Source: a virus. From it: 40,428 bases of DNA. The notes beneath the pieces were generated by a model that saw only the letters and a program-made list of their open reading frames with translations, had not been told where the DNA came from and ran no database searches. Both the position numbers and the translations under genes were made by a program. Each line of letters opens with the position of its first letter. Within the stretch, counting starts at the first letter, position 1. Where the stretch lies: the IMG/VR virus record IMGVR_UViG_3300010430_000174, positions 1 to 40,428 of that record; one strand, given 5' to 3'. This document shows, piece by piece, positions 1 to 40,428 of the stretch.

Positions 1-1362
1 CGCCATGACGCTCATGTTCATGCCGAGCTGGATGCGACCCATCGGTCCACGACGAGGCTGGGCGCCTCTTCGGTAGCCGATGCCCATGTGTTCAGCACCG
101 ACTTCAGCAGCTGTCTCGAGAGTAGTCGTGTACTTGCTACGGAGGTAGACGCCGGTGCGCCTCTTCATGGCGAGACGGTCGACAGCGATCTTCCCAGGAC
201 CCTGCTCGAGATCTTGGCGAGCGAGAGACTCTGCTCTCTTCAGAAGCCTCCGTTCAACATCGTCGGGCATGAAGATCGAAGTCGGGTGCTTGTCATGCCA
301 CTTGTCGAAGAGCTTGTTCTCCCAATGGGCTCGTCGAGCGGGGAATAGGCTAAAGGCAGCCTCTTCTCTAGCGGCTGCTCTCAGCTCACCAGAGAACAAG
401 ATGCCAGGAGCACGCATCTGGTGAGTGCTCTTCTCGAGGTTCGGGAAGAAGCCCGTCGCGAACATCTCAGGCGTAGTCGTCGGGACGATGACCCGGTTGC
501 CCCGCTGTGCTCTAGAGAGCTTTCGCTCGAAGCCTGCAGGTGTTGCAGCCGAGATCTTAACAGCCTTGACGCCAGTCCAACGTGCATGGCGCCCCATCTC
601 TGTCCGCATCTCTTCAGAGCCTTCGATACCTCTGAGGACCCGCTGAAGATGGCCGTAGCCTTCGACTGCCTCGCCGAGACTTCTCGACCATGCGGAGTGC
701 TGAGTGCGGCCTACACCAAGGACCTGAGCCGGAGCCTTGAGAATCCCCGAGGAGCGGTCGTAGTGCTGGAGGAGGGCGTCGAAGAGAGGATGCCCCTTGC
801 CGTATGAGACGCCCTGTCCGATGTAGGTGTGAATGGCACCCGGTGCGCTACCAGGGCCGAAGCCGATGTGCTGCGCAGTCATGCGCATCGTGTCATCGAC
901 GGCAGCCTTCATGGCTCTCATGCGCTCATGGACCGGGGCGCCTGTTGACCCCATCATCGATGTCGCTATCCGGTGCTTGATAGCTCTGCCGAAGGACATC
1001 GGAAGCTGACCGGCTGTCATCACCTCACGGGCGAAGCCGTACTTGACACCGCCCTTGTAGGCGATGCCTGGCGCCACAGACATCGGAAGCTCGACGCGCT
1101 GGGCACCGCGCACCATCGCGAGACCCATGAGTCCCTGGTGTGCCTTGCCTGCAGTCTCGAACTTGATACCGCTACCGATGAGATCCTGAGCGATGTCTGC
1201 TGCGTACGTCCCCTTGATACCCGGGGCATGCATCGCCTGCTCGGGTGTCAGTAGACGGACGTTGCGATCGATCGCTGTGGGAGTGAGCCCGGTAATCCCC
1301 TCGAACGGGTTGATGACCTTGCCCGGCTGAAGCTTCATTGCAGGGGGCAGCTCGCCTGTCAT
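1..1362 (-). CDS. large virion protein of unknown function, partial (C-terminus beyond left edge)
   Basis: The frame opens at an ATG (1362-1360) and runs 454 codons without a stop to the left edge, so the C-terminus is missing. The ATG overlaps the TGA of the 1523-residue gene before it (ATGA), which indicates coupled translation. The protein begins MTGELPPAMKLQPGK and is rich in Gly, Ala, Arg and Met, with many amphipathic helices but no signal peptide. I recognise no enzymatic motif. Its composition resembles the preceding large protein and the hydrophobic proteins near the large terminase gene. It follows the sheath, tube, chaperone and tape-measure-candidate genes, so a tail, baseplate or internal virion role is likely. 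That role is inferred from position only. Confidence 0.75.
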   Translation of the reverse strand, partial: MTGELPPAMKLQPGKVINPFEGITGLTPTAIDRNVRLLTPEQAMHAPGIKGTYAADIAQDLIGSGIKFETAGKAHQGLMGLAMVRGAQRVELPMSVAPGIAYKGGVKYGFAREVMTAGQLPMSFGRAIKHRIATSMMGSTGAPVHERMRAMKAAVDDTMRMTAQHIGFGPGSAPGAIHTYIGQGVSYGKGHPLFDALLQHYDRSSGILKAPAQVLGVGRTQHSAWSRSLGEAVEGYGHLQRVLRGIEGSEEMRTEMGRHARWTGVKAVKISAATPAGFERKLSRAQRGNRVIVPTTTPEMFATGFFPNLEKSTHQMRAPGILFSGELRAAAREEAAFSLFPARRAHWENKLFDKWHDKHPTSIFMPDDVERRLLKRAESLARQDLEQGPGKIAVDRLAMKRRTGVYLRSKYTTTLETAAEVGAEHMGIGYRRGAQPRRGPMGRIQLGMNMSVMA

Positions 1363-18543: not shown

Positions 18544-19407
18544 CTATTTCTCTCCCCCGTTAGGTTTCGTGCTGATCATTCCGAGCTTCACTAGTCGCCC
18601 TCTGATCTCATCGTCGAATTCGCCGCTCTTGATGGCGGTAGAGATACACGTCCGCGTCTGCGCAGCGAGCTGCTCAGGCGTCTGGTTGTAGCCCTTTTGC
18701 TTGTGGTCTTGTGCACGGCGCCACTGTGTGTAGCCGGCCATCAGAGTGCCCAGGATGCCGGCGATCAAACCGGCCAGTCCCTCTCCGTTGCTCTCCCCCG
18801 TCTCAGGGTTCTTGCCAGTGAACTCGCGGATGGTGCCTTGAACCTCTGTGAGGATCTCTTCCACCTTCGCAATCAGCTTGAGCACTTCCTTGACGACTGT
18901 AGCGAAGTGCTCCTGCCCCTTCTCGACCGCCCCACTGATTGACTCCGACATGTTCAAGATCGGGAGGATCAGCGCGGTGATCTGAGCCAGGGTCTCCTGT
19001 ACGAAGACCCTGAGCTCAGTGAAGACCTGGTCGATGCGTGCCTCTGCTGCCTTGTCACCCTCCTTGATAACTGTCAGAGCTGCAGCTTCGACCTGCGTGA
19101 TGCGTTCCTCAAGCTTGGCCTCGAGAGCAGTGACGTCCTCGTTGAATTCCTCACGCAGCTTGGACACCTCAGTAGAGGTCTCCGTCAACGCCCCTGAGTA
19201 TTCATCTCGGAACTCACCGATTGCCGCTGTCATCTCTTGCTTCGCACTAGTGACAGACTGATCAATCCGGTCGAGAGCTCGACTGGTTGAGGCCTCCGTG
19301 CTTGCAATCACCCGGTCTGCTTCATCCCCTGCTCGGGTGATGGAACCCTGGCAGCTTGTGAAGACTGTCAGGCAACCGATGGCGATGAGAGCGACAGCGA
19401 AACGCAT
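18544..19407 (-). CDS. predicted lipoprotein with long coiled coil and C-terminal membrane helix
   Basis: The protein has 287 residues from an ATG with AGGAA upstream. Residues 1-19 form a lipoprotein-type signal (MRFAVALIAIGCLTVFTSC) with Cys19 as the lipidation candidate; Phe at -3 is less usual. Residues about 25-190 are almost wholly helical and charged, a long coiled coil (for example TEVSKLREEFNEDVTALEAK). A Gly-rich hydrophobic helix follows near residue 210-232 (GLAGLIAGILGTLMAGY), then a basic C-terminus. This could bridge two membranes or the wall, like a spanin, or act in superinfection exclusion. It is third of three consecutive lipoproteins. Function is not established. Confidence 0.65.
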   Translation of the reverse strand: MRFAVALIAIGCLTVFTSCQGSITRAGDEADRVIASTEASTSRALDRIDQSVTSAKQEMTAAIGEFRDEYSGALTETSTEVSKLREEFNEDVTALEAKLEERITQVEAAALTVIKEGDKAAEARIDQVFTELRVFVQETLAQITALILPILNMSESISGAVEKGQEHFATVVKEVLKLIAKVEEILTEVQGTIREFTGKNPETGESNGEGLAGLIAGILGTLMAGYTQWRRAQDHKQKGYNQTPEQLAAQTRTCISTAIKSGEFDDEIRGRLVKLGMISTKPNGGEK

Positions 19408-19409
19408 CG

Positions 19410-19757
19410 TTACTTCCTACGGATAACGGTCTTCCCACCATCGAGAACAACGGGGGCACCTCTGCTATAGCCCAGGGGAATCGCACCGGGTGCGTTCTGG
19501 ACTGTGACAGTTGCTTCAGGCTCGAGGAGGATGTCGAGGTGGGGCTCGGCCGGATACTGCGCAGTCACAGTAGCCTTGCCTTTGATGACGTAGGGCTGGG
19601 TGATAGGTGTCTCGCTGCCGACAGGACCAGACATGGCCTGTACGCCAGCTTCACCGTCCACCCACCCCACAGCCTTGTAGTTCGTTCCGCTGCATGCTGA
19701 AAGGCACACTGAGAGCAGGAGGAGTCCGAGAAGGCCTCCGAGTCGATTGAGTCGCAT
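19410..19757 (-). CDS. predicted small lipoprotein (overlaps previous lipoprotein gene)
   Basis: The protein has 115 residues from an ATG with AAGGA about 9 bases upstream. The signal peptide is strong: MRLNRLGGLLGLLLLSVCLSACSG with lipobox LSAC. The mature domain is beta-rich and contains PYVIKG, resembling PYIIKG near the start of the preceding lipoprotein. Its first 107 bases overlap the end of that gene in another frame, an arrangement reminiscent of overlapping spanin genes. However, both products here have lipoprotein signals, so a classical Rz/Rz1 pair is not supported. It is two bases from the next lipoprotein gene. Role unknown. Confidence 0.65.
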   Translation of the reverse strand: MRLNRLGGLLGLLLLSVCLSACSGTNYKAVGWVDGEAGVQAMSGPVGSETPITQPYVIKGKATVTAQYPAEPHLDILLEPEATVTVQNAPGAIPLGYSRGAPVVLDGGKTVIRRK

Positions 19758-20037
19758 AGGTCTTTTCCTTATATTCTGGGACGAAGATCGGACGAACGGC
19801 GCCCGACCTCAGAGAGATCAGCTTACCTGACAGGAACGTACCGATGATCGGAATAGGCTCGAGGAACGGGAACGCGATCGAAGCCTCGTACCCGTAGAAG
19901 ATCTCCTCTTCCCGGTACCCCTCGATGAAGATGGCCGCGTCTTCCGGCCCCTTGATGATGTACGGCTCCTCGTTGGTCTTCACGCTCGAGCACCCCATGA
20001 GGAGGGAGGCCAGGAGGAGAGCCGACAGGCACCTCAT
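19651..20037 (-). CDS. predicted lipoprotein
   Basis: The protein has 128 residues; its ATG shares a base with the upstream TGA (TGATG), so translation is probably coupled. Signal peptide MRCLSALLLASLLMGCSS has lipobox LMGC. The mature part starts with EEPYIIKGPEDAAIFIEG and a hydrophobic, Pro-rich middle (FPFLEPIPIIGTFLSGK). The last 36 or so residues come from DNA shared with the next lipoprotein gene, and their Arg/Pro/Gln-rich sequence looks like passenger translation. A shorter functional domain with a tolerated tail is likely. It marks the start of a three-lipoprotein run inside an otherwise structural block. Confidence 0.6.
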   Translation of the reverse strand: MRCLSALLLASLLMGCSSVKTNEEPYIIKGPEDAAIFIEGYREEEIFYGYEASIAFPFLEPIPIIGTFLSGKLISLRSGAVRPIFVPEYKEKTYATQSTRRPSRTPPALSVPFSMQRNELQGCGVGGR

Positions 20038-24623: not shown

Positions 24624-26840
24624 CTACATCAGGTCAGCCGGGTCCGTGTCCTTTGTGGGCTCAGGCTTCTTGTCCAGATCTTCCTGGTTACGAGTAACCG
24701 TACGGGGATCAGGAGTCGTCGCGTCAGTCACCTTGGGATCGACACCCTTGTCGGGTGTGTGGACCTTGGCCTGAAGGGCTTCGGCGAATGCCGTCCCCTC
24801 ATCCTTGGTAGCGTCGGAAATGGAGTCGGAAGAACGCTCGGCGAGAGTCTCGCCGTATCGTTCGATCTTCTCGAAAGTATCCAGGTCAGCAGTGTCGGCA
24901 TGGCCGGCAACGCTGCGCATGAGTGCAAGGTTCCGAGCGCGAAGGGAATGCCCCTCGGCCTTGAACTTGTTTGCACTCTCAGTCATGTCCGTCAGCTCTT
25001 GCTGAATACGGTCACGGTCTGACTGGAGGTCCTTCTTTTCCTGTGCAAGCGTCGCGATCTGATCCGTCAGGATCTTCAGCGAGGCAGCGTCGGGAGTGGA
25101 TGCCGGAGCTCCGCCGGCACCATCAGTGGTCTTGTTTTCCACTTCGGAGTTCTCCATTGAGAGTTGGCCGGTTTCGCTTCCGTCATAATCAAACACCGCC
25201 GACTTGCTCGCGACCTTGTCAAGGATGGCCTGCTTCATCGCAGGGGTACCCTTGTAACGTCCGATCAGACGACGCGCCGCCATGACATGGGCGCAGTCCG
25301 GGATAGGGAAAGTACGGCCGGGGCCGCAATACGTTTGAGACTTAAGCTTCCCGCGTTCCTTTGCACTGAGCTGCTTATCGGCTGCCAGTTCGCTCCAGTA
25401 ATCATCCGAATCGATCGCGTCCGTATAGCGGTCAATGAGGGTGATCACGTCGTCGAAACCTGGCACTGTCTGCGCATCACGCTCAAGGACAACACTCACA
25501 TCGTGGACGTGGTTGTCGCCTCTATCTGCGTCTCGCGTCTTGCCTGACCAAGCATCCGCATCAATCTTCTTTACCCCGAACTCGATACCATGCCCGTGCT
25601 GGACAGGGGCGTCGCCCTCATGGACGTACGTACCCTCAGTCCACCCGCGCATGACCTTGTCTTTAAGGTCGAGGTGAAGATAGAGCGTATGGAAGTGACC
25701 GTCTCCCGGATCGGGAGTCGTCACACCGCGGATGTAGGCGACCATCTCGCCCTGGACGAAAGACACGTCCTGGACGTTGAGTTCCTCATCCGACTTGAGC
25801 AGGCCTGAAGCCAATAGGCCCTTCGCAATGTGGGCTAGAGCAAAGCCCTCGTCATCAAGCAAGTCCGTTTCCTTGACACTATCCTCTACCGGCCAGCCCG
25901 TGAAGGTGTCGTCAGTAGATCCAGCGCCTGCCTTAGACAGGTTGCCTTCAATTTGAGCGACATCTTCTGGGGTGAGTGGGCTAGCAGCGGGAATAGCGAC
26001 CTGAATCCGGCGCTTGATAGAGTTGCCACCACTAGGGATGACATCCCGCTCACCCTCTGTAAGGGTCAGCGGGGTGATCGTCCCCGAGGCGGAGTCCTGT
26101 AGGGCAAACCGAGGCTGGACGTCTGGCGACCAAACCTGCGAATCCCAGCCGGAGCTCACGCAATCTTCCATCTTCATGTTCTGAACGACTGCTCGAGGCT
26201 GAGCGGGGTCATTCACTACTGAGACTTCCTTGTAGAACATCTGTCCTGTGACGAAGTAGCACTCTACGTCGTCCGAGTCCTCTACCTCGTACTTCTGCCC
26301 AGGCCGGTGCTCACACCAGCCATCCTGCATCATGTTTGTACCACAAACAGTGCAGATAGCCTGGGGGCTGTAGAACGACGTAGAGAGAGTCAAGTACTCC
26401 TTGTTGAGGAACTTCTCGATCGCAGCGCTGTCGGTAATGCGCATTCCGAGAGTAGTGACGCCAGAGCCCTCAGCACCGTTCCGTGCCGGCTCAATGTAGT
26501 CCTCGAAGAAGGAGTCGCCAGACTTGAGGGCCTGGAAGGATGCCTTGACCACGCGGCCGATGGGATCCTGGCTCGAGTCGTGGTGAAGGAGAACAGGCTT
26601 GTTGAAGTGGCTGATGCCGCCGTGTGCCTGGTCCGTCCAGGTCCGGGTGCCTTCCTGCATGTGCTGGCCCGGGTACACCCGGCCGTTCAGGAGGTAGCCC
26701 GAGTACGTCGCCGGAGAGTCGACGAGTAGAGACACTCTCTTCCCGCTCTCCTTCGAAACGTCTTCGAAGAAGTTGGCGGCGTCACTGCGCAGCTGTAGAT
26801 CGGCGAGGCCAACCCAGTCTTGGAAGATTAGTTCAGGCAT
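24624..26840 (-). CDS. prohead protease fused to scaffold-like coiled coil
   Basis: Start chosen at the ATG 26840-26838 (MPELIFQDWV), which overlaps the portal stop by eight bases; a longer reading from 26915 would run 83 bases into the portal gene and adds 25 residues unlike the rest. The product has 738 residues. Residues about 37-215 look like a phage prohead protease: GYLLNGRVYP, KPVLLHHD (His86/87) with PIGRV, and LTLSTSF with Ser153 as nucleophile candidate. A Cys/His cluster (Cys163, Cys166, Cys176, His178) may bind zinc. Residues 375-450 are His-rich, and 503-530 (YCGPGRTFPIPDCAH) resemble a domain common in such proteins, which I believe is DUF6582. Residues 586-640 form a coiled coil. 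It probably cleaves scaffold and itself during head maturation. Confidence 0.75.
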   Translation of the reverse strand: MPELIFQDWVGLADLQLRSDAANFFEDVSKESGKRVSLLVDSPATYSGYLLNGRVYPGQHMQEGTRTWTDQAHGGISHFNKPVLLHHDSSQDPIGRVVKASFQALKSGDSFFEDYIEPARNGAEGSGVTTLGMRITDSAAIEKFLNKEYLTLSTSFYSPQAICTVCGTNMMQDGWCEHRPGQKYEVEDSDDVECYFVTGQMFYKEVSVVNDPAQPRAVVQNMKMEDCVSSGWDSQVWSPDVQPRFALQDSASGTITPLTLTEGERDVIPSGGNSIKRRIQVAIPAASPLTPEDVAQIEGNLSKAGAGSTDDTFTGWPVEDSVKETDLLDDEGFALAHIAKGLLASGLLKSDEELNVQDVSFVQGEMVAYIRGVTTPDPGDGHFHTLYLHLDLKDKVMRGWTEGTYVHEGDAPVQHGHGIEFGVKKIDADAWSGKTRDADRGDNHVHDVSVVLERDAQTVPGFDDVITLIDRYTDAIDSDDYWSELAADKQLSAKERGKLKSQTYCGPGRTFPIPDCAHVMAARRLIGRYKGTPAMKQAILDKVASKSAVFDYDGSETGQLSMENSEVENKTTDGAGGAPASTPDAASLKILTDQIATLAQEKKDLQSDRDRIQQELTDMTESANKFKAEGHSLRARNLALMRSVAGHADTADLDTFEKIERYGETLAERSSDSISDATKDEGTAFAEALQAKVHTPDKGVDPKVTDATTPDPRTVTRNQEDLDKKPEPTKDTDPADLM

Positions 26841-29058
26841 CGGTAGTCCCCGACTTACGTGTCTCGATCTTGATACCGCCCTCGCAGTTATCAAGAAACA
26901 CGGGGTTTGCCACAAGGCTCAGAATCAGAGTCTCATCATTCAAAGGGATCTCTCGCGACTTGTCATCCGGAACGATCATAGTTACGTGATCCGAACCAGC
27001 GTCTTTCAGTGCTTCGAGATATCCAAGGTGATAGGCGCCGTTGATTCCGCGGTCGAGCTTTCGAGTCAGAAGAACATCAACAACCTCGAGAGCCGGACGC
27101 ACCTGGGTAGGTGACGCCTTGTTCTCAAAGCGGCCGTCCTTAGGACTGATGCCAGCCGAAATCATAAGACTCTTCTCGAAGCGGTGCAAGTCCCGCTGGC
27201 GGAATGTTTCGAGGTAGGTTCTCATGAGGGACCGGGTCTTAAGAGGAGGTACTGAAGCTTCAGGGGGTGAAGCCTCTCTGTATCCATCTTCCCAAGCATC
27301 AATGAATGCCGGCGTCGCTACCCTCGAGATTTCCTTCGTCGCCTCAGTAACGATCTCCCTCATGTCGTGCTGGAGGCCGGTTCCAACACATTCGTGATGC
27401 TCCTTGATGACTTGATCACCGCAGAGCTCTAGGATCCGAGCCAGGTCGTTCTTGGCCACTCGAGGCTTAGTGGCAGACTTCCCATGCTGGTTCGAGGGCT
27501 GGGTTGCAGAGCTCGAACGCTTCGAAGCCTTCGCACCAGAAGCCTTTGCCTTGGCACCTCCACCCCCAGATGCACCACCCCCACCAGCGCCGGCGACAGG
27601 CTTGGGCTTTGCCTTCTCGATCTCGATGCTGTTCTTGGTCTCGGCTTCCATGAGCGGGATGAGGTGCTTGTTGAGGAACAGTCCCTCTTCCTCGCTGTCC
27701 GAAATCTCGTCCCTCTCGAGGTACTCCAACCGGAGCTCTTCGCGGGTGATACCACCCTGAACATAGAGATTGAGGCCGTGGGTCTCCTGGGCACGCTGGG
27801 CTTCAGCGTCGATCGGAGGCCAGGAGAACACCACCCTGTTGTCGGGGTTGACGTTGTAGTCACCCTCCATCTGGAGAATGCGGAAGAACTTCATGTTGAG
27901 GTATGCAGCAATGACCTGCTGGACCTCGGTGCATGCGTCTACAAGCACCTGAGACATGACCTGGGCAGTCCCTCGGTTGGAGGTGTCTCCTCTACCGAGG
28001 TCTACCTCAGAGACTCTGAGCCCGCTCAGCACACGTGCTTCGTAGTGCTGGATGTAGGGCTTCAGATCGAAGAGTTCCCCATCCTGACCAACGAGGACCA
28101 CTTCGTGGCGGTGGGTCGTTACAACGAAGCCCTCCTGGCTAAGCTCTTCCAGCTTGCCGTGCGCCATGCGGACCTCTGAGATGGGGGTCCCGCTTGCAGG
28201 GTCTACGGTGACCTCTGCCGGGAACTTGTCGTTGCCGACTTTCCAATGGAGAAGCGGGAACGCGAACTTGTGTCCTACATGCTCGGCCAGCATCTCCAGC
28301 TTACGGAGAGCCTTGATGTCCTCCATCGTGGGGATGATGAAAGGCGTGCCGAAGGAGTAGCCGTCCTTGAGGGCTGTCGTCACATGGACTACGTCGTGGT
28401 GCTGCCAGATCTTCTTCTTCTGGTTCCCAGGCACCTCTTGAACGTAGGCATAGGGGCGCCCACTTGCATTCTGGCGGACCTTGACTGTTGCTGGGTCCGG
28501 GATGGAGATCGCAGAGATGGGGTTGAGCTTCTTGCCCCACATCTTGATTCGATGTCCTGTCGAGCGCATGGGGTCTCTCGAGAAGACCCAGTAACCATTC
28601 GAGGTCACTACTGTGTTGCGGACGAGTGATCGAAGCATGTCCTCGAAGGGCCTGTCGGAGATGATCTCGATCTCTTCGAGCCGGCGCTTCATGTACTTGA
28701 CAGCCTCAGGGTCTTTGCCCTTCAGCCGGTAGCCGTTCTTCATGATCATCTCGACGTGGCGATCCACGGAGACACGGAAGTACGACTCGAGGTCCTGGAA
28801 CTTGATGACCTCGGTGAGGTCGTAGACAGGGGCAACTTCATCGCCGGCAGTACGCCTGGACGAGAGCATCTTCTGCTTACCCGTCTGGAGAGTGAGATCC
28901 CGCTTACCGGGGCGTCTCTTCTCCTTGACGGCCGTGCCGAACTCACCAGGGGAGGATGTCGGAGATCTCGTGATCGAGGTCTTCAGGTCGGAGAGGTCCA
29001 ATGAGAGACCTTCCAGGGCCTTCTCAGTCCTTGTCTTCCAGAGGCCGAACCAGGCCAT
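26833..29058 (-). CDS. portal protein with long C-terminal extension
   Basis: The protein has 741 residues; its ATG shares a base with the preceding TGA. Residues about 70-480 have portal character: VIKFQDLESYFRVSVDRHVE early, NPISAISIPDPATVKV and WQHHDVVHVTTALKDGYSFG (a typical portal segment with a G-x-P follow-up), and ALRKLEMLAEHVGHKF near the stem. It forms the dodecameric vertex ring through which DNA passes. After a Gly/Ala/Ser-rich linker near residues 485-520, a further 220-residue helical domain follows that I cannot assign; a head-morphogenesis (MuF-like) fusion is possible but its signature is not clear. Order between terminase and protease supports the call. Confidence 0.8.
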   Translation of the reverse strand: MAWFGLWKTRTEKALEGLSLDLSDLKTSITRSPTSSPGEFGTAVKEKRRPGKRDLTLQTGKQKMLSSRRTAGDEVAPVYDLTEVIKFQDLESYFRVSVDRHVEMIMKNGYRLKGKDPEAVKYMKRRLEEIEIISDRPFEDMLRSLVRNTVVTSNGYWVFSRDPMRSTGHRIKMWGKKLNPISAISIPDPATVKVRQNASGRPYAYVQEVPGNQKKKIWQHHDVVHVTTALKDGYSFGTPFIIPTMEDIKALRKLEMLAEHVGHKFAFPLLHWKVGNDKFPAEVTVDPASGTPISEVRMAHGKLEELSQEGFVVTTHRHEVVLVGQDGELFDLKPYIQHYEARVLSGLRVSEVDLGRGDTSNRGTAQVMSQVLVDACTEVQQVIAAYLNMKFFRILQMEGDYNVNPDNRVVFSWPPIDAEAQRAQETHGLNLYVQGGITREELRLEYLERDEISDSEEEGLFLNKHLIPLMEAETKNSIEIEKAKPKPVAGAGGGGASGGGGAKAKASGAKASKRSSSATQPSNQHGKSATKPRVAKNDLARILELCGDQVIKEHHECVGTGLQHDMREIVTEATKEISRVATPAFIDAWEDGYREASPPEASVPPLKTRSLMRTYLETFRQRDLHRFEKSLMISAGISPKDGRFENKASPTQVRPALEVVDVLLTRKLDRGINGAYHLGYLEALKDAGSDHVTMIVPDDKSREIPLNDETLILSLVANPVFLDNCEGGIKIETRKSGTTDA

Positions 29059-30980
29059 CAGGCATCCTCTCTAATGATCGCGTTCAGGACAGCATCGGGA
29101 ACGATACCGAGGCAGAACTTACGGTAGTTCTCAACGGTCACCTGTTGCTCCTGACTGCTGATCTCAGTTCCTGGTGCTGGGATCGATCTTTGACCGTGAC
29201 CTCTTTCGATGGCCATCTCACCAGGAAAGAACTTTTCTACCACCTCGGGCGGTAGTTTCAATGGACGCGGCATGTTGTCGAAGAAGTTGTCATCTTCACC
29301 CGGATCAGGTAGCGGGTCAACTCCGTCGCCTGTCCCGGACCCATCATCAGCGCAATACTCCACGGTTGCGAGGATTCTGTCAAGGATAGTGAGGATGACC
29401 CGGGCCCTGCGGAGGTCGTACATCGTGCCCCAGCGGAGGAACATCTCTCCTCCCTCTTCCTCGAGGCCGACCATGAACTTACGAACGAGGCTGAAGAGCT
29501 GCTCACGGAAGAACTGGATAGCCTGCTGGATCATCTGCAGCAAGTCCCAGATGAAGGGGCAGTAGGTCAAGTCCTCCATGACGTCCGGGTCGAAGCTGAT
29601 AGTCCACTGAGCAACGTCGTCGATGATGTTGTCGAAGGCCCGGTGGATGTGGGCAATGATCTCGTTCTGGATGCTTCGAATGGCCCAGTTTAGAACCCCT
29701 CGAGGAGACATGACCGTGAGCGTGAGCCCGTTCTGCATCACGCCGATAGAGACCGCAATGATGTCTCTGATCTTCTGAATGCGCTGAACGTCGTTGGTCT
29801 TCACCATGAATCTAGCGAAGCAACAGAGGACGTCTAGGGCAAACCCGCTGGTCATGACTCCAGCGATGGCATTGATGTTGCGGTCGGCGATTGAGGTCCC
29901 TTGAACCAGAGATCGGTAGTAAGCCGTCGAGATCGTCGATGAGTCCGGATACTCAATCCGAACTCTCCTCCCTGTCCCGAAGGGATTGGGGAAGAGGTTC
30001 GGGACACCAGGGGTCTCGTGATACACGGAGGTTTCGTACTCGAGGATCGTGCGGTGTCCTTCTGAGTACTGATGTGAGTGGTAGTACGAGGTGACGATCT
30101 GCTCTCGGGTGTCCCTGAGGTCTCTGTAGGCCACCCAGGCCTCGTACCCGTCAGGCTGTCGAGTGATGTAGTTGTCGGCGTACGCAGTGATCACCATAGG
30201 GTCTGTCGCGCCCTGGATCTCCTTGAGCTGTCTGTGCATGCCGTCGCTCTCGACTAGGCGCCTTGCCTGAGCGAGGATCTCACTCCCAGGCAGAGGGAAG
30301 TTGAATGAAGGCTGGTTGACGGCGAAGAGGACCACGTCCTCCTGCATCCCAAGGATCAGCATCATCGCAGCCATTGAGATAGCGATACGGAGCTGAATAG
30401 GTCCGACCTCAGACCCTGCAGGCTGCTTAGCAGCACATGCCTCTTGGTGCTCGATACCCTGGTGTTGTCCGATCAGCTGGTTCAGCAGGAGCCAGAGAAG
30501 CCAGGGCTCCATGCTAAGGAGGAACTCGTCCCACTTAGAGAGTCCGCCTCCACCTCCACGCATGTGCTTCTTGATCTTGAACGCGTCGGTACTGGCGTCA
30601 CCGGTGAACTCACCAACGATCTCGAACTTCAGCTTCCGAGAGCGGCGTACCTGCTCGTCGTACATCTGCTTGTAGATGTCAAAGGAGATAGTGCTGCCAT
30701 CAGACTTGTCTCCTCCACCCATTTGGCGACGTACAGCATCTCTGACACGCACAGCGTCGATGTCGACTGGGATGGAGAGCTTCTCAGCTAGAGGCTTCAC
30801 CTCTCTGATCAGAGCTGTCGCCTTGTTGGCCACGTAAGCCTGGTAGTCGAAGAGATCTCTGAGGTCTGCGTCCGTGATCTCTTCGTTGCTCCCATCCGGG
30901 ACGTCTCGATCGACGTTCTCTAGTTCGCGGATGGTACGGAAGCGTTTGGCTTCCGCAGGCTCGTTTTGGAAAGGCTTCAC
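29058..30980 (-). CDS. unknown 640-residue protein between terminase and portal
   Basis: The protein starts at a GTG overlapping the terminase TGA by four bases (GTGA), and its stop overlaps the portal ATG, so it is fully coupled into the packaging genes. The first 140 residues are charged and helical; a Gly-run (RGGGGGLSKW near residue 145) follows. Residues about 158-170 (EPWLLWLLLNQLI) and 196-220 (LRIAISMAAMMLILGM) are strongly hydrophobic, like membrane or buried helices. Further helices with Trp/Ile/Phe (CPFIWDLLQMIQQAIQFF) lie near residue 470-490. The C-terminus is Pro/Asp-rich. I recognise no family. A large conserved-looking gene here could be a portal accessory or internal protein. 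Confidence 0.7.
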   Translation of the reverse strand: MKPFQNEPAEAKRFRTIRELENVDRDVPDGSNEEITDADLRDLFDYQAYVANKATALIREVKPLAEKLSIPVDIDAVRVRDAVRRQMGGGDKSDGSTISFDIYKQMYDEQVRRSRKLKFEIVGEFTGDASTDAFKIKKHMRGGGGGLSKWDEFLLSMEPWLLWLLLNQLIGQHQGIEHQEACAAKQPAGSEVGPIQLRIAISMAAMMLILGMQEDVVLFAVNQPSFNFPLPGSEILAQARRLVESDGMHRQLKEIQGATDPMVITAYADNYITRQPDGYEAWVAYRDLRDTREQIVTSYYHSHQYSEGHRTILEYETSVYHETPGVPNLFPNPFGTGRRVRIEYPDSSTISTAYYRSLVQGTSIADRNINAIAGVMTSGFALDVLCCFARFMVKTNDVQRIQKIRDIIAVSIGVMQNGLTLTVMSPRGVLNWAIRSIQNEIIAHIHRAFDNIIDDVAQWTISFDPDVMEDLTYCPFIWDLLQMIQQAIQFFREQLFSLVRKFMVGLEEEGGEMFLRWGTMYDLRRARVILTILDRILATVEYCADDGSGTGDGVDPLPDPGEDDNFFDNMPRPLKLPPEVVEKFFPGEMAIERGHGQRSIPAPGTEISSQEQQVTVENYRKFCLGIVPDAVLNAIIREDA

Positions 30981-33082
30981 GGTGAGATGCGCCTCGGAGA
31001 ACCTCTGAAGCCACTACGCAGGGGGTTCCTACCCGACTTACCCTTAGTCTTGTACCCATTCATGGTCTGCATGAATTCCACGATCTCTGAGGTGTACTCT
31101 TCCTGCCCAGAACCAGTTCCGGTGCTCCTACCTGGCGCAAGCTCCTCCCGAAGCTTCTGAAACTCCTGTCTACGAGCCTTCCGGGCTTGCTCCAAGGACT
31201 TTCCAGGATACCTGTTCTCCAGGTCATCCGGATCCGTCCCTACAGGAGTGAGCCCAACATACATGTCACTGACTGGCTTGTAGTCATTGAATTCAGAGAA
31301 GTTGACAGCGAATCCCATGACCGCTAGTGCGAGTGCCGTGAGAGTGTGCTCGTAACCCTGTGTGTACCGAGGGTGACCCTGCGGCGAGTACTTCTCGACT
31401 CTGAACTCTCTCATCTGCTGGACAAGACCGACCTCGAGGTACGCGAGCTCAGACTCAATCAGGGCAACGGTTGTGTCTTCGTGTGCCGGCAGGACAAGCT
31501 GTCCAGAGGAGATCCATCCAGCAAGGAGGTCGATCATGAAGGGCTTCGCGTGCTTCTTAACTACGAGTGAAGCATTGCGCGGATCCCTGAACTCCACCTT
31601 CTCGGACATGTTCACTGCTACGAGTCTCTTGGCGTAGTTGAGCTGAGCAGCAGGCTGCTGCTTGTCGATACGGTGTAGGAGCTCGACCTGGGTCGCGCCA
31701 TAGCCTTCGTCGACGTAGACGTAGTCACAGCCCCATTTCTTGTCCATGAGGACCACCGCTTCAACGCCGGCGATCTGTGTGAACTCCTGCGGTCGGATGA
31801 TCTGCTTGTCGACTACAGCCGCTCGAGCCCCCTTCTTACGCTTGGGGTCGATCTCCACCACCACGAGGTGCGTTCCTGTGAGCTTGTTCCAGTCGACTCC
31901 AAGGATGTAGATACGGTCCTTGTGCCTCTGCATCTGGTCGTAGTCATACTGGCGAAGGGCACTATCCAGGTCGGACTGTCTGAAGACACCCTCTGTGGGA
32001 GTGCCGAACTCAGCATTGAACTCACGGTCGTAACCAGACTGTGAGTACATGGACTTGAAGAAGTTCTCAGCCCTAGGAGTCCACCGAGGGCTCTCCTTGG
32101 AGATGAACCAGAACTCCTTGAAGCCCTGTCTTTTGTCTGTGCAGACCGTGTGGAACTTAGACCTGGCTCCAGTGGGTGTCGTCGACATCCACATGCGCAC
32201 CCGCTGGTTTGAGGACAGCACAGCGAAGATGGCTTCGATGTCCTCATCGGCCATGTAGTCGATCTCATCGAAACCAATGGCATCCGCGTCCTGACCACGA
32301 ATCTTGTCAGAGCGGGCACCCGTCTTACGACCTGAGGAGAAGCCTCGAACAACAGAGCCGTTGTAGAACTCAATCTCCCAGTAAGGAGACTTTCTGACGG
32401 CCTTCACGGAGGCCCTCATGTTGTGAGACCTGCCGATGAAGTCTTCGATGTTGTCGAAGATCTTCTTCACCTGCGCCTCGTAAGGGCAGATGATCAGGTA
32501 CTCGAACTTGGTCTGGACGTAGCCATCCTTGAAGAAGCAAGAGTAGAGAATGTCCCAGCAGAGGACTGTCGTCTTCCCTACGCGTCTGCCGGCCCTGGCT
32601 GCCTTCCAGAGGTTCGAACACCTCATCATGTCGGCCTGATACCAGTCAGCCCGCATGTTGAATTCGTACTCAATCCAAGCAACAGGATCGATGCCGATCC
32701 GATACTGCTTGATCTCCTCCTCGTCCATCCCAGACTGCGCTAGGTCCTCGTCGGTGATCGAGGCTCCTCGCCATGTCTTGTCGCCCTTACAGGGCATCTG
32801 CCATTCACCCTTGTCGAACAGCTTCTCATTGGCAAGCCGGTCGTAGTAGTGGACGCAGCGCTTACAGAAGTGCTCGTCGGGCCCCGCCATGTAAGGGTCC
32901 CCATCCCGGTTCAGGATGAGCGTCCCGTCCTCCTCGAACTGCTGCCTGCCGATGGGCGAGTACCCGTTCTTGATGTAGTCGTTCTCGGGGATGTACGATG
33001 TAGACGCAACGACAGCCTCAGCCTCTCGAGGCTCAAGCCATTGCCTCTGGGGTGCGGCGAGGGGGTCTACTGAGTCGGTCAT
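30977..33082 (-). CDS. terL: terminase large subunit (ATPase and nuclease)
   Basis: The protein has 701 residues; its ATG overlaps the upstream TGA (ATGA). The ATPase motor is clear: Walker A ARAGRRVGKTTV (Lys170), Walker B AIGFDEIDYM (Asp272, Glu273), and the coupling motif MSTTPTG near residue 299. The nuclease domain shows GVDWN (Asp397), YVDEGYG (Asp458/Glu459) and a final helix YEHTLTALALAVMG. In that last helix the usual Asp of the metal site is not where I would expect it. An N-terminal knuckle with Cys73, Cys76 and Cys98 may bind zinc. The enzyme cuts concatemeric DNA and pumps it into the procapsid at the portal. No intein or frameshift is present. Confidence 0.93.
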   Translation of the reverse strand: MTDSVDPLAAPQRQWLEPREAEAVVASTSYIPENDYIKNGYSPIGRQQFEEDGTLILNRDGDPYMAGPDEHFCKRCVHYYDRLANEKLFDKGEWQMPCKGDKTWRGASITDEDLAQSGMDEEEIKQYRIGIDPVAWIEYEFNMRADWYQADMMRCSNLWKAARAGRRVGKTTVLCWDILYSCFFKDGYVQTKFEYLIICPYEAQVKKIFDNIEDFIGRSHNMRASVKAVRKSPYWEIEFYNGSVVRGFSSGRKTGARSDKIRGQDADAIGFDEIDYMADEDIEAIFAVLSSNQRVRMWMSTTPTGARSKFHTVCTDKRQGFKEFWFISKESPRWTPRAENFFKSMYSQSGYDREFNAEFGTPTEGVFRQSDLDSALRQYDYDQMQRHKDRIYILGVDWNKLTGTHLVVVEIDPKRKKGARAAVVDKQIIRPQEFTQIAGVEAVVLMDKKWGCDYVYVDEGYGATQVELLHRIDKQQPAAQLNYAKRLVAVNMSEKVEFRDPRNASLVVKKHAKPFMIDLLAGWISSGQLVLPAHEDTTVALIESELAYLEVGLVQQMREFRVEKYSPQGHPRYTQGYEHTLTALALAVMGFAVNFSEFNDYKPVSDMYVGLTPVGTDPDDLENRYPGKSLEQARKARRQEFQKLREELAPGRSTGTGSGQEEYTSEIVEFMQTMNGYKTKGKSGRNPLRSGFRGSPRRISP

Positions 33083-33855
33083 CTATAGTGCATCATCGAG
33101 GCTTCATTGCCCAAGACAGCCCTCGTAGAGAGATGGCTGTTGTGGATTGCCTGGATAGCGCGGGCCCTCTGTGTTTGTGCGCTTCTAGTGTCTACGAACT
33201 CCTCGCCGAGTTCAATGTCTCGGCGGTGGTACTTCTTGAGGCCGGGCTCGTAGTCGGCGATTGACTTCGCGATCATAGTGCCGGCGAAGAACCCAAGCTC
33301 TAGCGACGCAGAGATCCAGACCATCCGAGACATGGCCTTGAAGTTCCGCCAGACTGAAGTTCTCGTTGCGAACTGAGCACCGTACTTCGCCCGGACTTGG
33401 TGATGGCTTTGAATCTCGCCCCTGATACCACCAGGGAGCGCTCCTCCGCCTGCGGCCTGGTTCATGAGCGCAGGGCTTCGCATCGTCCGATTGACAGCAT
33501 CTCTCGCGTTGAGGTTCGCGTGCCCTCTCCCTGTCCGGCCTGCATCTCTCATCGATCGATAGGCGTCGCCACGTGGAGAGTAGTGAGGGTTCGGAGATGA
33601 CGCACCAGTCTGGAAGCCACCAGGGCCGTGAGCCGGCTGCCTGTGATAGTTCCGGAAAGCCGCCCCTCGAGCGTCTGCGGGGAGGCCTATTGCTGTGTCC
33701 AGAGATGTCATAATAGCCTTACGGCTATTGAACATCTTGTGGCCCATCTCCAGACCCATCCAGCCAAAGACGAACCCCAAGTTGTGGAACATCGGGGGCT
33801 CGAACTTAGACTCTTCCTGGGCGGGCTCCCAGAAGTCGTAGGGTCCTCTTGCCAT
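33079..33855 (-). CDS. Arg/Gly/His-rich hydrophobic protein, possible internal virion protein
   Basis: The protein has 258 residues from an ATG with AGGAAG upstream, directly before the terminase. A hydrophobic N-terminal segment (FHNLGFVFGWMGLEMG, residues about 23-38) is followed by a Arg/Gly/Ser/His-rich, low-order middle (residues 65-150), then a helix with VWISASLELGFFAGTMIAKS. It lacks a signal peptide. Its composition matches the two proteins further upstream and the large proteins at the left end. Such proteins could be packaged in the head and ejected with DNA. That is an inference; no family was recognised. Confidence 0.6.
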   Translation of the reverse strand: MARGPYDFWEPAQEESKFEPPMFHNLGFVFGWMGLEMGHKMFNSRKAIMTSLDTAIGLPADARGAAFRNYHRQPAHGPGGFQTGASSPNPHYSPRGDAYRSMRDAGRTGRGHANLNARDAVNRTMRSPALMNQAAGGGALPGGIRGEIQSHHQVRAKYGAQFATRTSVWRNFKAMSRMVWISASLELGFFAGTMIAKSIADYEPGLKKYHRRDIELGEEFVDTRSAQTQRARAIQAIHNSHLSTRAVLGNEASMMHYR

Positions 33856-35413: not shown

Positions 35414-36009
35414 TAGAAGGGACCGATCTGATCACCACCTCTTAGGGCATTGATCGTTGAGTAGCCGAAGAGGGCGGCTGCGCCGACCGTCCCGGCCTTG
35501 CCTCCGAATCTAGACATGCCGGCGCCGACGCCGAGTGTCATACCTCCTGAAAGGGCAGACCTCCCTACGTTGGAGATGGGGTTCTCGCCGATCGTCATGT
35601 CAAGGGCTGCACCACCACCGATGATTCCGGGGATGCCTATTCGAGACATCATCCGTCTGCGCTGAAGCTGCTTGAGCTGGTCGCCTGTCCTCCAGCCAGA
35701 ACTGCCCTCCATCATGTCTGAGAAGTTCTTGCCGGTGAAGTAGTCGCCAAGGGTGTAGTTGCCCTTCACCTTGCTCGCCTGCTGAGACCCGTACTCGAAC
35801 ATGCTCTGGGTCCCGCCCCAGAAGCCTTCGCCTGTTTCGAGAACAGCATCCTGACGCCACGATCGACTAGGCACATTACGACCGAACGATGTCCGAAGCT
35901 TCTGACGGGCTTCTGACTCGGCGAGGTCGATCGGAGAGAGGTGCGAGAGCTGCTTCCGGACAAACCGGCCGAGCTTGCCTCCCATGTAGTCGCGCATTCC
36001 TGCGATCAT
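35413..36009 (-). CDS. basic, Gly-rich hydrophobic protein, possible internal virion protein
   Basis: The protein has 198 residues from an ATG with GGAGG about 7 bases upstream; the next gene's ATG overlaps its stop. The N-terminal half is basic and helical (MGGKLGRFVRKQLSHLSPID). The C-terminal third is made of Gly-rich hydrophobic helices (RIGIPGIIGGGAALDM; LSGGMTLGVGAGMSRFGG; TVGAAALFGYSTINAL). It shares this style with the 469- and 258-residue proteins, forming a group of three. No motif was recognised. The run of such genes between the terminase subunits is unusual. Confidence 0.6.
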   Translation of the reverse strand: MIAGMRDYMGGKLGRFVRKQLSHLSPIDLAESEARQKLRTSFGRNVPSRSWRQDAVLETGEGFWGGTQSMFEYGSQQASKVKGNYTLGDYFTGKNFSDMMEGSSGWRTGDQLKQLQRRRMMSRIGIPGIIGGGAALDMTIGENPISNVGRSALSGGMTLGVGAGMSRFGGKAGTVGAAALFGYSTINALRGGDQIGPF

Positions 36010-39000
36010 TAGGCCCCTCCGTGGATGGACGAGTGGTACTGGCGTTCAGCATGACTGACGACAGGTTTTTGTCTACCCCTATACGTTCTGGGCACCGTGG
36101 GGTGAAAGTGGAGCTGAGTCCCCTGATCTCTCAGCTTTGAGCGGTTTGCGACGTCAGGTCTCGAGGCGTGCGTTCCGAGTCCTGCGTGTCCGTGAGTGAG
36201 CGGAATGCAGCCCGTTCTGGGTCGACCACCCTTGGTGTCCTTCTTGTCGACTGCATCCCAGCTGAAGCTCTGCTCGCCCTCGGGTCCTGTGCCTTCACTC
36301 TGGATTCTCGGTCCAGGCTGCGAGTCCAGGATCTCAGGTGTTCTACCTCTGCGAGGTGCGTACTGAGCCCGGTCAAGGTTCACGGACTTGTGCGTGATCT
36401 GAGGCTGGGGACCATTCACCAAAGTGGGAGGTCCAGGGTCAACTCCCTCGAGCTCTCTAGGCTCCAGCATCCTTCGCGGAGGAGCGATCTGAGGCATCGG
36501 GTCATGTCCGTCTGTCGTAGACATCCCTGACCTGGCAATGTTCTCCGTGGCCTCATCTAGGAGGTTGTGCTTACCAGCTACGGCTTCGGCAGGAGGAGGA
36601 GCCTTCTCGTTGTCTCTGCCAGACGAGTAGACAGAGAGGTTGGAGAACGGCATCTCTGAGGGCTCAATGCCATGAGGTCCTGCCCAGTCCGAGGACGGCT
36701 GGCGGATACCCTCAATGAAGGACGTCGTTCTCTCTTCCTTCTCTCTGTTGTGACTTCCCAGGAAGTACCCGACCGTCAAGAGCGCGGCTGCAGTCTTAAG
36801 GACTCCACCCTTCCCCTCGAGTCCGTTGAGACCCTTCCACTTACGCCCCTGTCGAGCAGCTTGCTTCTCGGCTGCTCTGGCGTGCACGTCGTCAACACCT
36901 GCAGCGCCTACGTAGTCATGGGCCAGCTGCGTAGCTCGACGGGCATTTTGAGAGTCTGCGTACTCGTTCTCAAGCTTGTTCCAGACATGGGTCTGCTCGT
37001 CGTTCTGAAGGACCCGGGCCATGTCCTCTTCAGCGATGGCCGCGATCTTGACGTCGTAGAAGCCCTGGTGTCCCTGGCTTGTAACGATGTCCTGTTTGGC
37101 AGCTGTCTCCATGAAGGCCTGGTACCTCTGCGCGTTCGCAGCGGGGATGCCTAGCTCCTCATGGTGCTCAGCCATGATCTCGACGACGTCTCCGAGGCGT
37201 CCGCCTAGACCGAAGGCAAAGGGACTCTGGACGCCCGCCATCGGGACGCCCATGTTCATACCTACTAGCTGGCCATACTTCTTGGTGTCACCGAATAGAG
37301 AGATGTGCGTGTCATCTGCCGTCCGATACCACTGGTTCATCATCTCGACATCAGACATCGGCTGACTGATGACCTGTCCGGCGTCGTCCATCTTCCAAGG
37401 TCCAGCGACGAAGGATTCTTCCTTGGCAGCTGCTTCTCTCAGGATCGTCATGAAGTCTGTGGCTTGGTCAGTTCCAGAGAGCCTGTTGGCCCACCTAGAC
37501 GCATGACTCTCGGCTGCCTTGAACTCGTTGCCTGTAAGGTTCTGAGCGTCGAGCCATCCGAGCATCCGCTGCCGGACCTTGTCGTACTTGAGGTCGTCCA
37601 CCAGCTCGCGGAGAGGCTGGTTGTACTTGATGACCCCGTAGTGCCTGCCACCCTTGGTGATCTCGTGAGGCGCGAAGTCAATGATCTCACGACCAACAGC
37701 AGCCTTGAGCTTGGCCCGGTCGGTGATCTGAGTGCTGTAGGCCTCGTCTGCCCACATGCGGTTGAAGCGGATCTCGTGGAGTGAGGTCCCGACCTCTAGA
37801 GGCTGGACCTTGCCCGTCCGCACCAGGTCGGAGACCTCTGTGTGGCCGGACTCGTAGATCGCCCGCATAAGAGTCGTAAAGTCGTAGTCGACATTCCACG
37901 CGGCAATCGTGATTCCGTGATCAGCGTTCTTCCAGTGTGAGACAAGAGCGCCGGCAACGTCCTTAAACGAGGTGTAAGCGGCCTTTCCACCCCTCTTGCT
38001 CTCGAGAGCCTCAAGCAGGACTCGTCGGGCTCCTGTGTTCGGAACGCTTTGGTGAACTCTGGTAGCAGGATCCCAGAGCCCCTTGGGCTGGCTGTTGCTG
38101 CCGTAAGAGTCCGGGCTTGCGGACATGGCGTTGATCGCCTTGTCGACCTTGGCGTTCTTGCGACCAGCCTGCAGATCGGCCATGTCGGCATCAGTGAAGT
38201 CGTTTAGGAGAGCTTCGTCAAAGGTGCCTGACAGCCAGGTGTGGATGTGGAGTCCGTCGGCCCCATCAACAATCCCAGAGCGATAGCTGAACCCGCCATT
38301 CTTGATAGCGGACGCAGGCGCATATGCGACCTCGGAGATGCGCAGCGGATCAAACGGACTACGACGCTTCCGTAGCCACTTACCAGAAGCTACGTCATAG
38401 GTCTCAGAGAAGGTGGTGAGACCCTGGGCCTCGATGTCCAGGTATGCGACCTGGTGAGGCTTCCACTGCCCTTGGCTTCGCCCACCGGGGAAGTCCGGAG
38501 GATGAGGCTTCATCACATCCCACTTAGGCATGTGAGGAGCGTGGCCACCCATCGGGGGCCTGATACCGAGCTGCTTAAGGTCTCGTTCGGTGATCTTCCT
38601 TACAGCACCTGGGTCGATGACCTGGAGGTGGCCTCCGTGCCAGCCGAGGTTACGGCCACCTGTGTCCCAGAAGACGTGACCTTGTTTGGCGAGCTGTACA
38701 TGTAGGTTGAGAACGGCCTCGGACTCGAGGTTGATACCACGTGCAACTTTAGCTCTCGGCAGGACCTCAAGGACCCAGGGGTCCTTACCAGGTGTCTGCC
38801 AGGTCTTTGTCTTGAATGCCTGGAGCATGCCCCGGAGCTTGGGCCTCGAGAGAGGTGACCCAGGGATCATCCCCATCTGGCCGAATCTCAATACACGGTC
38901 GCCGAACTGATACGCAACAGCTTCTTGCCCAGCAGCAAGGGGCTTGATCCCCGGGATCCGTGCGGCGAAGCTTCGTACCGCCTTGATACCCGCAGGGTCG

Positions 39001-39830
39001 CCCTGAAGGTGTCTGAAGAGGCTGCTTGCCGTCCCTTCTTCTCCCAGCCACATCGGAACATCGTGTCCCTCGCGGCGGAGCCAAGTAGGAAGGCCAGCGA
39101 GCTCGTCGAGCCCTTCACGGATCCGGTGGAAGTAAGAGGTACGCCCACCCGGGAAGTCATAGACCGGGTGGCGCTTCATCGCCTCGAACTGGCCAGGGCT
39201 GGTCGGATAGGACCGACGGATGCCCTGCCAGCCGATAGAGGCAGACTTGCCCGTGAACGCCTGCAGGCGCCACATGTGATGCTGGTGGCTGTTCCTGTTC
39301 TGGCGGCCGGTGTCGTAGCTTGAGACCTCAGCAGCCTGGACGTTCAGGAAACGGACGTCGCCATAGACACCGAGGCTGAGAGTGTCAGCATCGACGATGT
39401 CAATGGCATCTCTACCAAAGGTCCCCAACACGTTTGCGGCAGGAGAGCGGGTTGCCTGGTCGTAGAAGTGAACTGGACCAGGAGCTTGTCCGCCCCACTT
39501 GCCCCGGCGTTGCGTCTGGGCTTCCAGCTGTGCTGCTGAGAACTTGGAGTGGAAGCGAGTGGACCTTCCGAAGTCCGTGTTGTAGCTCGAGTAGCCTGCT
39601 CGGATCAGCTCCTCGTTGAGGTTGACCTCACCCTCAGGAGTCTGAACGATGATGTAGGCCAGCCGGCGATTGTAGAGATCTCGGCTCTGCCTATGAGTGT
39701 CGATCTCGAGGCGGATGTTCTCGGCGTTCGCGAGGATCTTCTGTACGAACGCTCGAGCTTCTTCGCCCTCTCCACCCACACCGGGGCGTGAGATCTCCCC
39801 TCCAGTGAGCATGTCATAGAGGTGACGCAT
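36009..39830 (-). CDS. multidomain enzyme: permuted SNase-like, kinase-like and DnaQ-like exonuclease segments
   Basis: The protein has 1273 residues; its ATG directly follows a TAG and has GAGGT 7 bases upstream. Residues 20-113 match the C-terminal half of staphylococcal nuclease (GEEARAFVQKIL, DLYNRRLAYI with Arg55, NEELIRAGY). Residues 137-172 match its N-terminal half (VDADTLSL with Asp149; VRFLNVQAAE with Arg160, Glu168), so the order is permuted. Residues 296-412 look kinase-like: GQEAVAYQFGDRVLRFG, FWDTGGRNLGW (Asp389, Asn394) and VIDPGA (Asp406). Residues 460-800 show DnaQ-like motifs AYLDIEAQG (Asp464, Glu466) and WNVDYD (Asn646, Asp650); the third motif near His776 lacks its usual Asp. 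A membrane-like helix (1010-1025) precedes a Pro-rich tail. Role unknown; DNA processing at packaging or on entry is possible. Confidence 0.8.
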   Translation of the reverse strand: MRHLYDMLTGGEISRPGVGGEGEEARAFVQKILANAENIRLEIDTHRQSRDLYNRRLAYIIVQTPEGEVNLNEELIRAGYSSYNTDFGRSTRFHSKFSAAQLEAQTQRRGKWGGQAPGPVHFYDQATRSPAANVLGTFGRDAIDIVDADTLSLGVYGDVRFLNVQAAEVSSYDTGRQNRNSHQHHMWRLQAFTGKSASIGWQGIRRSYPTSPGQFEAMKRHPVYDFPGGRTSYFHRIREGLDELAGLPTWLRREGHDVPMWLGEEGTASSLFRHLQGDPAGIKAVRSFAARIPGIKPLAAGQEAVAYQFGDRVLRFGQMGMIPGSPLSRPKLRGMLQAFKTKTWQTPGKDPWVLEVLPRAKVARGINLESEAVLNLHVQLAKQGHVFWDTGGRNLGWHGGHLQVIDPGAVRKITERDLKQLGIRPPMGGHAPHMPKWDVMKPHPPDFPGGRSQGQWKPHQVAYLDIEAQGLTTFSETYDVASGKWLRKRRSPFDPLRISEVAYAPASAIKNGGFSYRSGIVDGADGLHIHTWLSGTFDEALLNDFTDADMADLQAGRKNAKVDKAINAMSASPDSYGSNSQPKGLWDPATRVHQSVPNTGARRVLLEALESKRGGKAAYTSFKDVAGALVSHWKNADHGITIAAWNVDYDFTTLMRAIYESGHTEVSDLVRTGKVQPLEVGTSLHEIRFNRMWADEAYSTQITDRAKLKAAVGREIIDFAPHEITKGGRHYGVIKYNQPLRELVDDLKYDKVRQRMLGWLDAQNLTGNEFKAAESHASRWANRLSGTDQATDFMTILREAAAKEESFVAGPWKMDDAGQVISQPMSDVEMMNQWYRTADDTHISLFGDTKKYGQLVGMNMGVPMAGVQSPFAFGLGGRLGDVVEIMAEHHEELGIPAANAQRYQAFMETAAKQDIVTSQGHQGFYDVKIAAIAEEDMARVLQNDEQTHVWNKLENEYADSQNARRATQLAHDYVGAAGVDDVHARAAEKQAARQGRKWKGLNGLEGKGGVLKTAAALLTVGYFLGSHNREKEERTTSFIEGIRQPSSDWAGPHGIEPSEMPFSNLSVYSSGRDNEKAPPPAEAVAGKHNLLDEATENIARSGMSTTDGHDPMPQIAPPRRMLEPRELEGVDPGPPTLVNGPQPQITHKSVNLDRAQYAPRRGRTPEILDSQPGPRIQSEGTGPEGEQSFSWDAVDKKDTKGGRPRTGCIPLTHGHAGLGTHASRPDVANRSKLRDQGTQLHFHPTVPRTYRGRQKPVVSHAERQYHSSIHGGA

Positions 39831-39923
39831 CTACGACCTCGGGAGCATGGTGAGCAGCTTGTAGAACTCGCTAGGAGTCCTGGTCTTGAGGAGGAGTTTC
39901 TTTTGGCGGTCTGTTACCGCCAT
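39831..39923 (-). CDS. possible 30-residue peptide before the multidomain gene
   Basis: An ATG at 39923-39921 opens a frame of 30 codons (MAVTDRQKKLLLKTRTPSEF at the start) ending TAG exactly next to the ATG of the 1273-residue gene. It overlaps the end of the small-terminase candidate in another frame. There is no clear ribosome site, and no motif. It may be translated by coupling or may only be a remnant. Confidence 0.25.
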   Translation of the reverse strand: MAVTDRQKKLLLKTRTPSEFYKLLTMLPRS

Positions 39924-40428
39924 CTTCGGGACGATAGTGTGGAGAGCTCTCACCGGCGCCGAGATTGAGAGTTTTGAAGGAGAAGGCGTCTCCGGCATTA
40001 TCTTTCTCCGTCTGCTCAGCGAGCCTGTTGAGTTCTGCAGCCTTTGCCTGTGCGGCAGCGGCCTGAGTCGACGGATCCTGCCAGCCAAGCTTGCCGGCTT
40101 CGACCTTAGCACGCGGGGTTGCAAGCAGTTCCTTGAGCTTACGGAGGATGGAGGAGCCCTGCTTGTTCATGAAGTCCAAGACCGGGTGAACCTTCCTGAC
40201 CTCGATCGGGTCGCCTCTCTGGTTCACTCCGATGATGTCTGTCGTCATGACCTCAGGCTCCTCGGAGAGGTGCCAGGCCACACGCATCTGAATCACCATG
40301 TCCATGGCCAGGAGGCCCAGGAGGGACCTCACAGGGATGAAGTCAGGGTGAGCCTCGTCTACCTGATAGGCCAGCATGAAGTCGTGGATCCAGAGATCCT
40401 TGGTCATCTCTTCGACAGGGCAGTCTTC
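39871..40428 (-). CDS. terminase small subunit candidate (P27-like), N-terminus at right edge
   Basis: The frame is open from the TAG at 39873-39871 to the right edge. An ATG at 40407 would give 178 residues but has no ribosome site, and the upstream codons (EDCPVEE before it) look coding, so the true start probably lies outside the window. Helices DFIPVRSLLGLLAMDMVIQM and then GVNQRGDPIEVRKVHP, LRKLKELLATPRAKVEAGKL resemble P27-family small terminases, which end their core with an L..TP..R motif after a conserved HP. The C-terminus is Ala/Glu- and Pro-rich. The protein recognises phage DNA for packaging. It is well separated from the large subunit gene, which is unusual. Confidence 0.6.
   Translation of the reverse strand, partial: EDCPVEEMTKDLWIHDFMLAYQVDEAHPDFIPVRSLLGLLAMDMVIQMRVAWHLSEEPEVMTTDIIGVNQRGDPIEVRKVHPVLDFMNKQGSSILRKLKELLATPRAKVEAGKLGWQDPSTQAAAAQAKAAELNRLAEQTEKDNAGDAFSFKTLNLGAGESSPHYRPEDGGNRPPKETPPQDQDS

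Follow-up and report, generated by a model that had tools for sequence, protein, structure and literature searches.

A TerL-linked phage protein combining nuclease and kinase-like segments, proposed as a modular protein of the polyvalent type

Polyvalent proteins of phages and plasmids carry disparate effector domains in one chain and are encoded near virion genes (Iyer et al. 2017, PMC5512222). Such chains are conceived of as being delivered with the DNA, and PMC5512222 describes kinases among them that lack the C-terminal subdomain. The protein examined here, P0001, is like them in having several unrelated effector domains, in its place among virion genes, and in a kinase that ends after the active-site core, but is unlike them in having neither a Kinase-PolyVal match nor any of the typical partners, such as a metallopeptidase; PMC5512222 does not mention SNase or KfrB by name. 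Zeta-toxin/KfrB proteins of Burkholderia conjugative plasmids (e.g. WP_011695087.1) contain a homologous kinase-like segment, with ~32–36% identity to P0001 and placed between the zeta toxin and the KfrB domain, but have no SNase or exonuclease. Exonuclease proteins encoded upstream of the large terminase subunit (TerL) gene in 0305phi8-36-like phages (relatives L012, L008, L013, and L019, and ME3 gp11) share this location and the exonuclease motifs with P0001, and the first three also share a weakly hydrophobic anchor with it, whereas all four relatives carry a C-terminal PD-(D/E)XK nuclease where P0001 has an SNase and lack a kinase segment of the P0001 type. Upstream of TerL in L029, a single 793-aa protein unites exonuclease motifs with an anchor and an SNase, as P0001 does; the L029 SNase, however, is ordinary in order and located at the C-terminus, and there is no kinase-like part. 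The original prediction held that no standard phage enzyme is known to have this set of domains. No described protein with the exact set was found in the libraries and papers searched, but the kind is already known, polyvalent proteins with truncated kinases having been described (PMC5512222).

Viral record IMGVR_UViG_3300010430_000174 is a 40,428-base fragment, and the window analysed is this whole stretch of DNA. Its TerL, portal protein, and major capsid protein match those of Moorella phage MTATph1, Acinetobacter phage ME3, and Bacillus phage KLEB27-3 (~25–31% identity where tblastn was run), and the annotation of ME3 links that phage to Bacillus phage 0305phi8-36; the fragment is therefore taken to come from an uncultured phage distantly related to the 0305phi8-36/ME3 lineage of large myoviruses. 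In the direction of transcription the gene order is a partial ORF, P0001, ORFs of 198, 469, and 258 aa, TerL, an ORF of 640 aa, and portal. P0001 with all its segments, its partial upstream ORF, the 258-aa neighbour, TerL, and portal are encoded on the minus strand. P0001 had been placed between the terminase genes; TerL (30977–33082) is identified with certainty (phrog_2, E = 2.9e-30; 31% identity to Moorella phage MTATph1), whereas the partial ORF (39871–40428) is a possible small terminase subunit with a weak PHROG match (phrog_9231, E = 0.0035). The portal protein (26833–29058) matches phrog_9232 (E = 3.1e-34). The 258-aa neighbour (33079–33855), which is found upstream of TerL in relatives too, has a conserved C-terminus, IHNSHLSTRAVLGNEASMMH, and similar C-termini are common to the small proteins just upstream of TerL in L003, L012, L036, and L038. 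The TerL stretch encoded by a second IMG/VR contig, L002, which bears another sample number, is identical; this virus, or a near twin of it, has thus been assembled two times.

P0001 is a complete ORF of 1273 aa (36009–39830) in a single frame throughout, with an ATG start preceded by GAGG and an in-frame TAG immediately upstream. Because GC content by codon position is steady to approximately residue 1100, no frameshift is indicated; it drifts over the last 170 residues, which are of low complexity. Searches for relatives of the whole protein returned none among phages at E ≤ 0.001 and none in viral_contigs, and P0001 was seen in one virus.

Residues 15–112 (39495–39788) can be assigned with certainty by sequence comparison to the C-terminal two-thirds of an SNase fold. 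The Pfam SNase profile (PF00565) matches residues 22–112 with 36.8 bits against a cut-off of 21 (E = 5.8e-9; profile positions 23–105 of 107), and solved staphylococcal nucleases match residues 15–112 in a PDB search (2.2e-5). The nuclease had been called permuted, and by eye a lookalike of the missing N-terminal half does follow the C-terminal part at residues 140–170 (39321–39413), with DADT at 147–150 and VRFLNVQAAE at 159–168; strands in this stretch of the model are of low confidence. The putative half alone had no Pfam match, and when it was moved ahead of the C-terminal half the Pfam score gained only 0.9 bit over the reversed control. The catalytic set used for comparison was D21, R35, D40, E43, and R87 of staphylococcal nuclease, and the position of the metal ligand D40 is, by eye, Q165 in the putative half. 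A circular permutation is plausible and, if right, would entail the replacement of D40 by Q165.

The kinase-like segment (residues 292–417; 38580–38957) is well supported. In tblastn searches against plasmids, residues 246–439 match Burkholderia plasmid proteins (best E = 9e-4); the segment occurs on 104 plasmids, 90 of them predicted to be conjugative. When the plasmid-type sequences alone were made into a profile, P0001 was its only match among 1732 ORFs (E = 1.2e-9); since those sequences had been found with P0001, the tblastn figure is the unbiased one. The signature reads FWD389TGGRN394 ... VID406PG, and D389, N394, and D406 are invariant among the aligned homologues. The kinase signatures originally predicted at residues 296–412 are thus confirmed, residue numbers included, by independent homologues and a kinase-like model. 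In all homologues aligned, the strand-3 Lys position is occupied by Arg (R315 in P0001), a substitution known in some phosphotransferases. An AlphaFold model, with pLDDT of ~53–83 across the kinase-like part and ~68–83 for residues 351–420, has an order of strands and helices resembling a kinase N-lobe and active-site core, and a kinase-like fold was what Foldseek returned: the best 50 matches of the model were all kinase-fold proteins, with Rio2 at the top (E = 6.4e-5). VIA-align Z scores reached only 7.3, a range that can be reached by chance according to the tool's own warning, and the argument for a kinase is therefore made from motif, homology, and Foldseek jointly. On the strength of the model, the N-lobe/active-site core fold is probable. 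The domain stops ~20 residues past DPG, and the C-lobe is missing. Neither Kinase-PolyVal (PF18762) nor the APH phosphotransferases (PF01636) matched P0001 at E ≤ 10. A scan with the segment found none in viral_contigs and three Burkholderia loci in genome_contigs. Ten related records, mainly fragments, lack it; only junction peptides match there, in the record of L012.

These junction peptides, DVMKPHxx(x)FPGGR, flank the kinase-like segment at residues 212–236 (39123–39197; EAMKRHPVYDFPGGR) and 434–458 (38457–38531; WDVMKPHPPDFPGGR). Both copies of P0001 together gave E = 3.7e-11 in the leave-protein-out profile. L012 has two copies of the peptide as well, and L038 one; leave-protein-out tests gave E values of 3e-8 or better. 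Homology between the middle of L012 and L038 could not be shown beyond the junction.

Residues 460–800 (37431–38453) are likely, on sequence grounds, to form a DnaQ-like (3′-5′) exonuclease. Motif I (D465 and E467, in the context YLDIEAQG starting at residue 463) and motif II (N646 and D650) do not vary between P0001 and the two relatives nearest to it, L012 and L008; motif II had been predicted at these positions, and motif I was found one residue on from the D464/E466 first given. A candidate motif III, H776...D792, has stretched spacing. P0001 itself matched none of the exonuclease profiles searched, including PF00929 and phrog_192, whereas its relatives do match: L013, L014, L015, and L019 exceed the Pfam exonuclease cut-offs at the same place, and phrog_192 matches L013 (9.1e-14), L015 (2.1e-10), L019 (2.2e-5), and ME3 gp11 (1.8e-5). 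A profile of P0001 and L012 finds L008 at E = 9e-7. The profile-profile score of the P0001 segment against the exonucleases of its relatives is weak, 2 of 200 shuffles scoring higher and the reversed control almost as high; there was no exonuclease among the PDB matches of the exonuclease profile, and the AlphaFold model of residues 432–1075 (pLDDT 33) is unreliable.

Beyond the exonuclease-like segment, residues 801–1000 (36831–37430) have no assigned fold and no reliable model and are shared with L012. They are followed at residues 1005–1075 (36606–36818) by the anchor, a weakly hydrophobic segment with the motif EGIRxP...GIxPS...SGRD. A membrane-like helix had been predicted here; the hydrophobic segment, which peaks at residues 1008–1026, and the motif after it are conserved among relatives, but its mean Kyte-Doolittle value of only 1.2 is weak for a transmembrane helix. 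The anchor is common to six proteins encoded upstream of TerL (P0001, L008, L012, L013, L029, and L045), with a motif of the form GIxPS...F.SGR[DN]. In leave-one-out tests it was recovered at E = 1.3e-5 for P0001, 0.006 for L008, and 0.03 for L045, and whole-protein E values for L012, L013, and L029 were ~5e-8 or better. When viral_contigs was scanned for the exonuclease and anchor, only the contig of L012 was returned. The C-terminal tail with KLRDQ (residues 1227–1273; 36012–36152) resembles, for P0001 at motif level, the tails of L012, L013, L014, L015, L019, and L038. Leave-one-out tests confirmed the RDQ tail in L014 and L015 and, less clearly, in L019; because it did not hold for P0001, L012, L013, and L038, the tail was not used as proof. 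Designed “Cake” proteins among the PDB matches were set aside, no stretch passing alone.

A scan based on TerL gave 80 loci, and across the relatives different modules (SNase, Cas4-like PD-(D/E)XK nuclease, or protein kinase) are swapped on a common chassis of exonuclease and weakly hydrophobic anchor. The module after the anchor is a PD-(D/E)XK nuclease in L008, L012, and L013, an ordinary SNase in L029 (3.4e-9), and a protein kinase domain in L045 (Pfam, 3.3e-4). The Cas4-like nucleases of L012, L008, and L013, and that of L019, which accompanies an exonuclease, match phrog_1706 at 1.1e-9 to 5.1e-16. P0001 has no recognisable module after the anchor, and its SNase and kinase-like parts lie on the N-terminal side. 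The TerL-linked protein with the anchor motif at L045:1-2334 has the kinase signatures GAGSFGKAF, HADIAGRN, and DWG. Apart from the stand-alone SNases of the group, an SNase domain was also seen within an ORF of 1977 aa in a related large phage (L097, in the record of L043).

P0001 fits the polyvalent concept because disparate enzymes are joined in one chain, the gene stands among packaging and head genes, modules are swapped among relatives, and the kinase-like segment has a tie to conjugative plasmids. Our preferred reading, to which we give about even credence, is that a large myovirus related to 0305phi8-36/ME3 makes P0001 as a modular protein of the polyvalent type and probably carries it in the virion. 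The constant part, or chassis, would consist of the probable DnaQ-like 3′-5′ exonuclease, the anchor, and, at motif level, the C-terminal tail, on which an SNase-type nuclease and, between the two junction peptides, a truncated protein-kinase-like segment would be mounted. The protein would enter the cell together with the phage DNA or directly behind it; there its nuclease parts may degrade or process DNA and its kinase-like segment may phosphorylate a host target; we infer packaging, injection, activities, and targets alike. The original proposal of a polyfunctional DNA-processing or injected anti-host protein is in part borne out, by the nuclease, kinase-like, and probable exonuclease parts, by membership in a TerL-linked shuffling family, and by the kinase homologues on conjugative plasmids. 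More tentatively, the family could be a cassette system in which effector modules are inserted at DVMKPHxx(x)FPGGR junctions of a TerL-linked exonuclease chassis with an anchor and a partly common tail, the tail or anchor serving as the address for virion loading. Next to their packaging genes, large phages encode numerous proteins that are still uncharacterised. A family in which nuclease and kinase modules are exchanged on a constant frame would help to show how such phages load enzymes into their particles; the common anchor, junction, and tail peptides are testable candidates for loading signals, and one kinase-like segment connects a phage protein with effectors encoded on conjugative plasmids.

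The main rival, since the swapped modules are mostly nucleases and the TerL-adjacent exonuclease is the most constant element, is that P0001 is not injected but acts in the producing cell, as a packaging-associated protein that trims, clears, or degrades DNA at the TerL complex. The proximity of the gene to the TerL region and the recurrence of an exonuclease next to TerL across the lineage speak for such a role, but it leaves both the kinase segments and the anchor unexplained, and related phages have stand-alone SNases at other places; we consider the packaging role possible, though somewhat doubtful. It is less likely, and indeed rather improbable, that P0001 serves the virion as a structural or scaffolding protein whose degenerate kinase-like and SNase parts act as binding modules. 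Two active sites do look altered, with Gln (by eye) at the D40 position of the SNase and Arg for the strand-3 Lys of the kinase, and the missing C-lobe and the long low-complexity C-terminal region would suit such a role; D389, N394, and D406 are nevertheless kept, as are the acidic residues of the exonuclease, and relatives have recognisable versions of the modules (the SNase of L029, the Cas4-like nuclease of L019, and the kinase of L045). That an assembly or gene-calling artefact fused unrelated genes is very improbable and already largely refuted, for although the exact domain order is carried by one virus only, the frame is single and open with steady codon-position GC, and L012 is colinear with P0001 from junction 2 through the anchor.

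Some further features of the window and of related loci were observed. A 1523-aa ORF at 1359–5930 is related to ME3 gp35, annotated as a virion structural protein (E = 1.5e-21). The TerL gene at L003:517-2916 appears to carry an intein after GRRVGK, in the Walker A region; an intein in the TerL homologue of BtI1 has been mentioned (PMC2147016). At 18544–20037 of the window, three successive ORFs, two of them overlapping, start with lipoprotein-like signal sequences and may include a spanin pair, which would fit a Gram-negative host.
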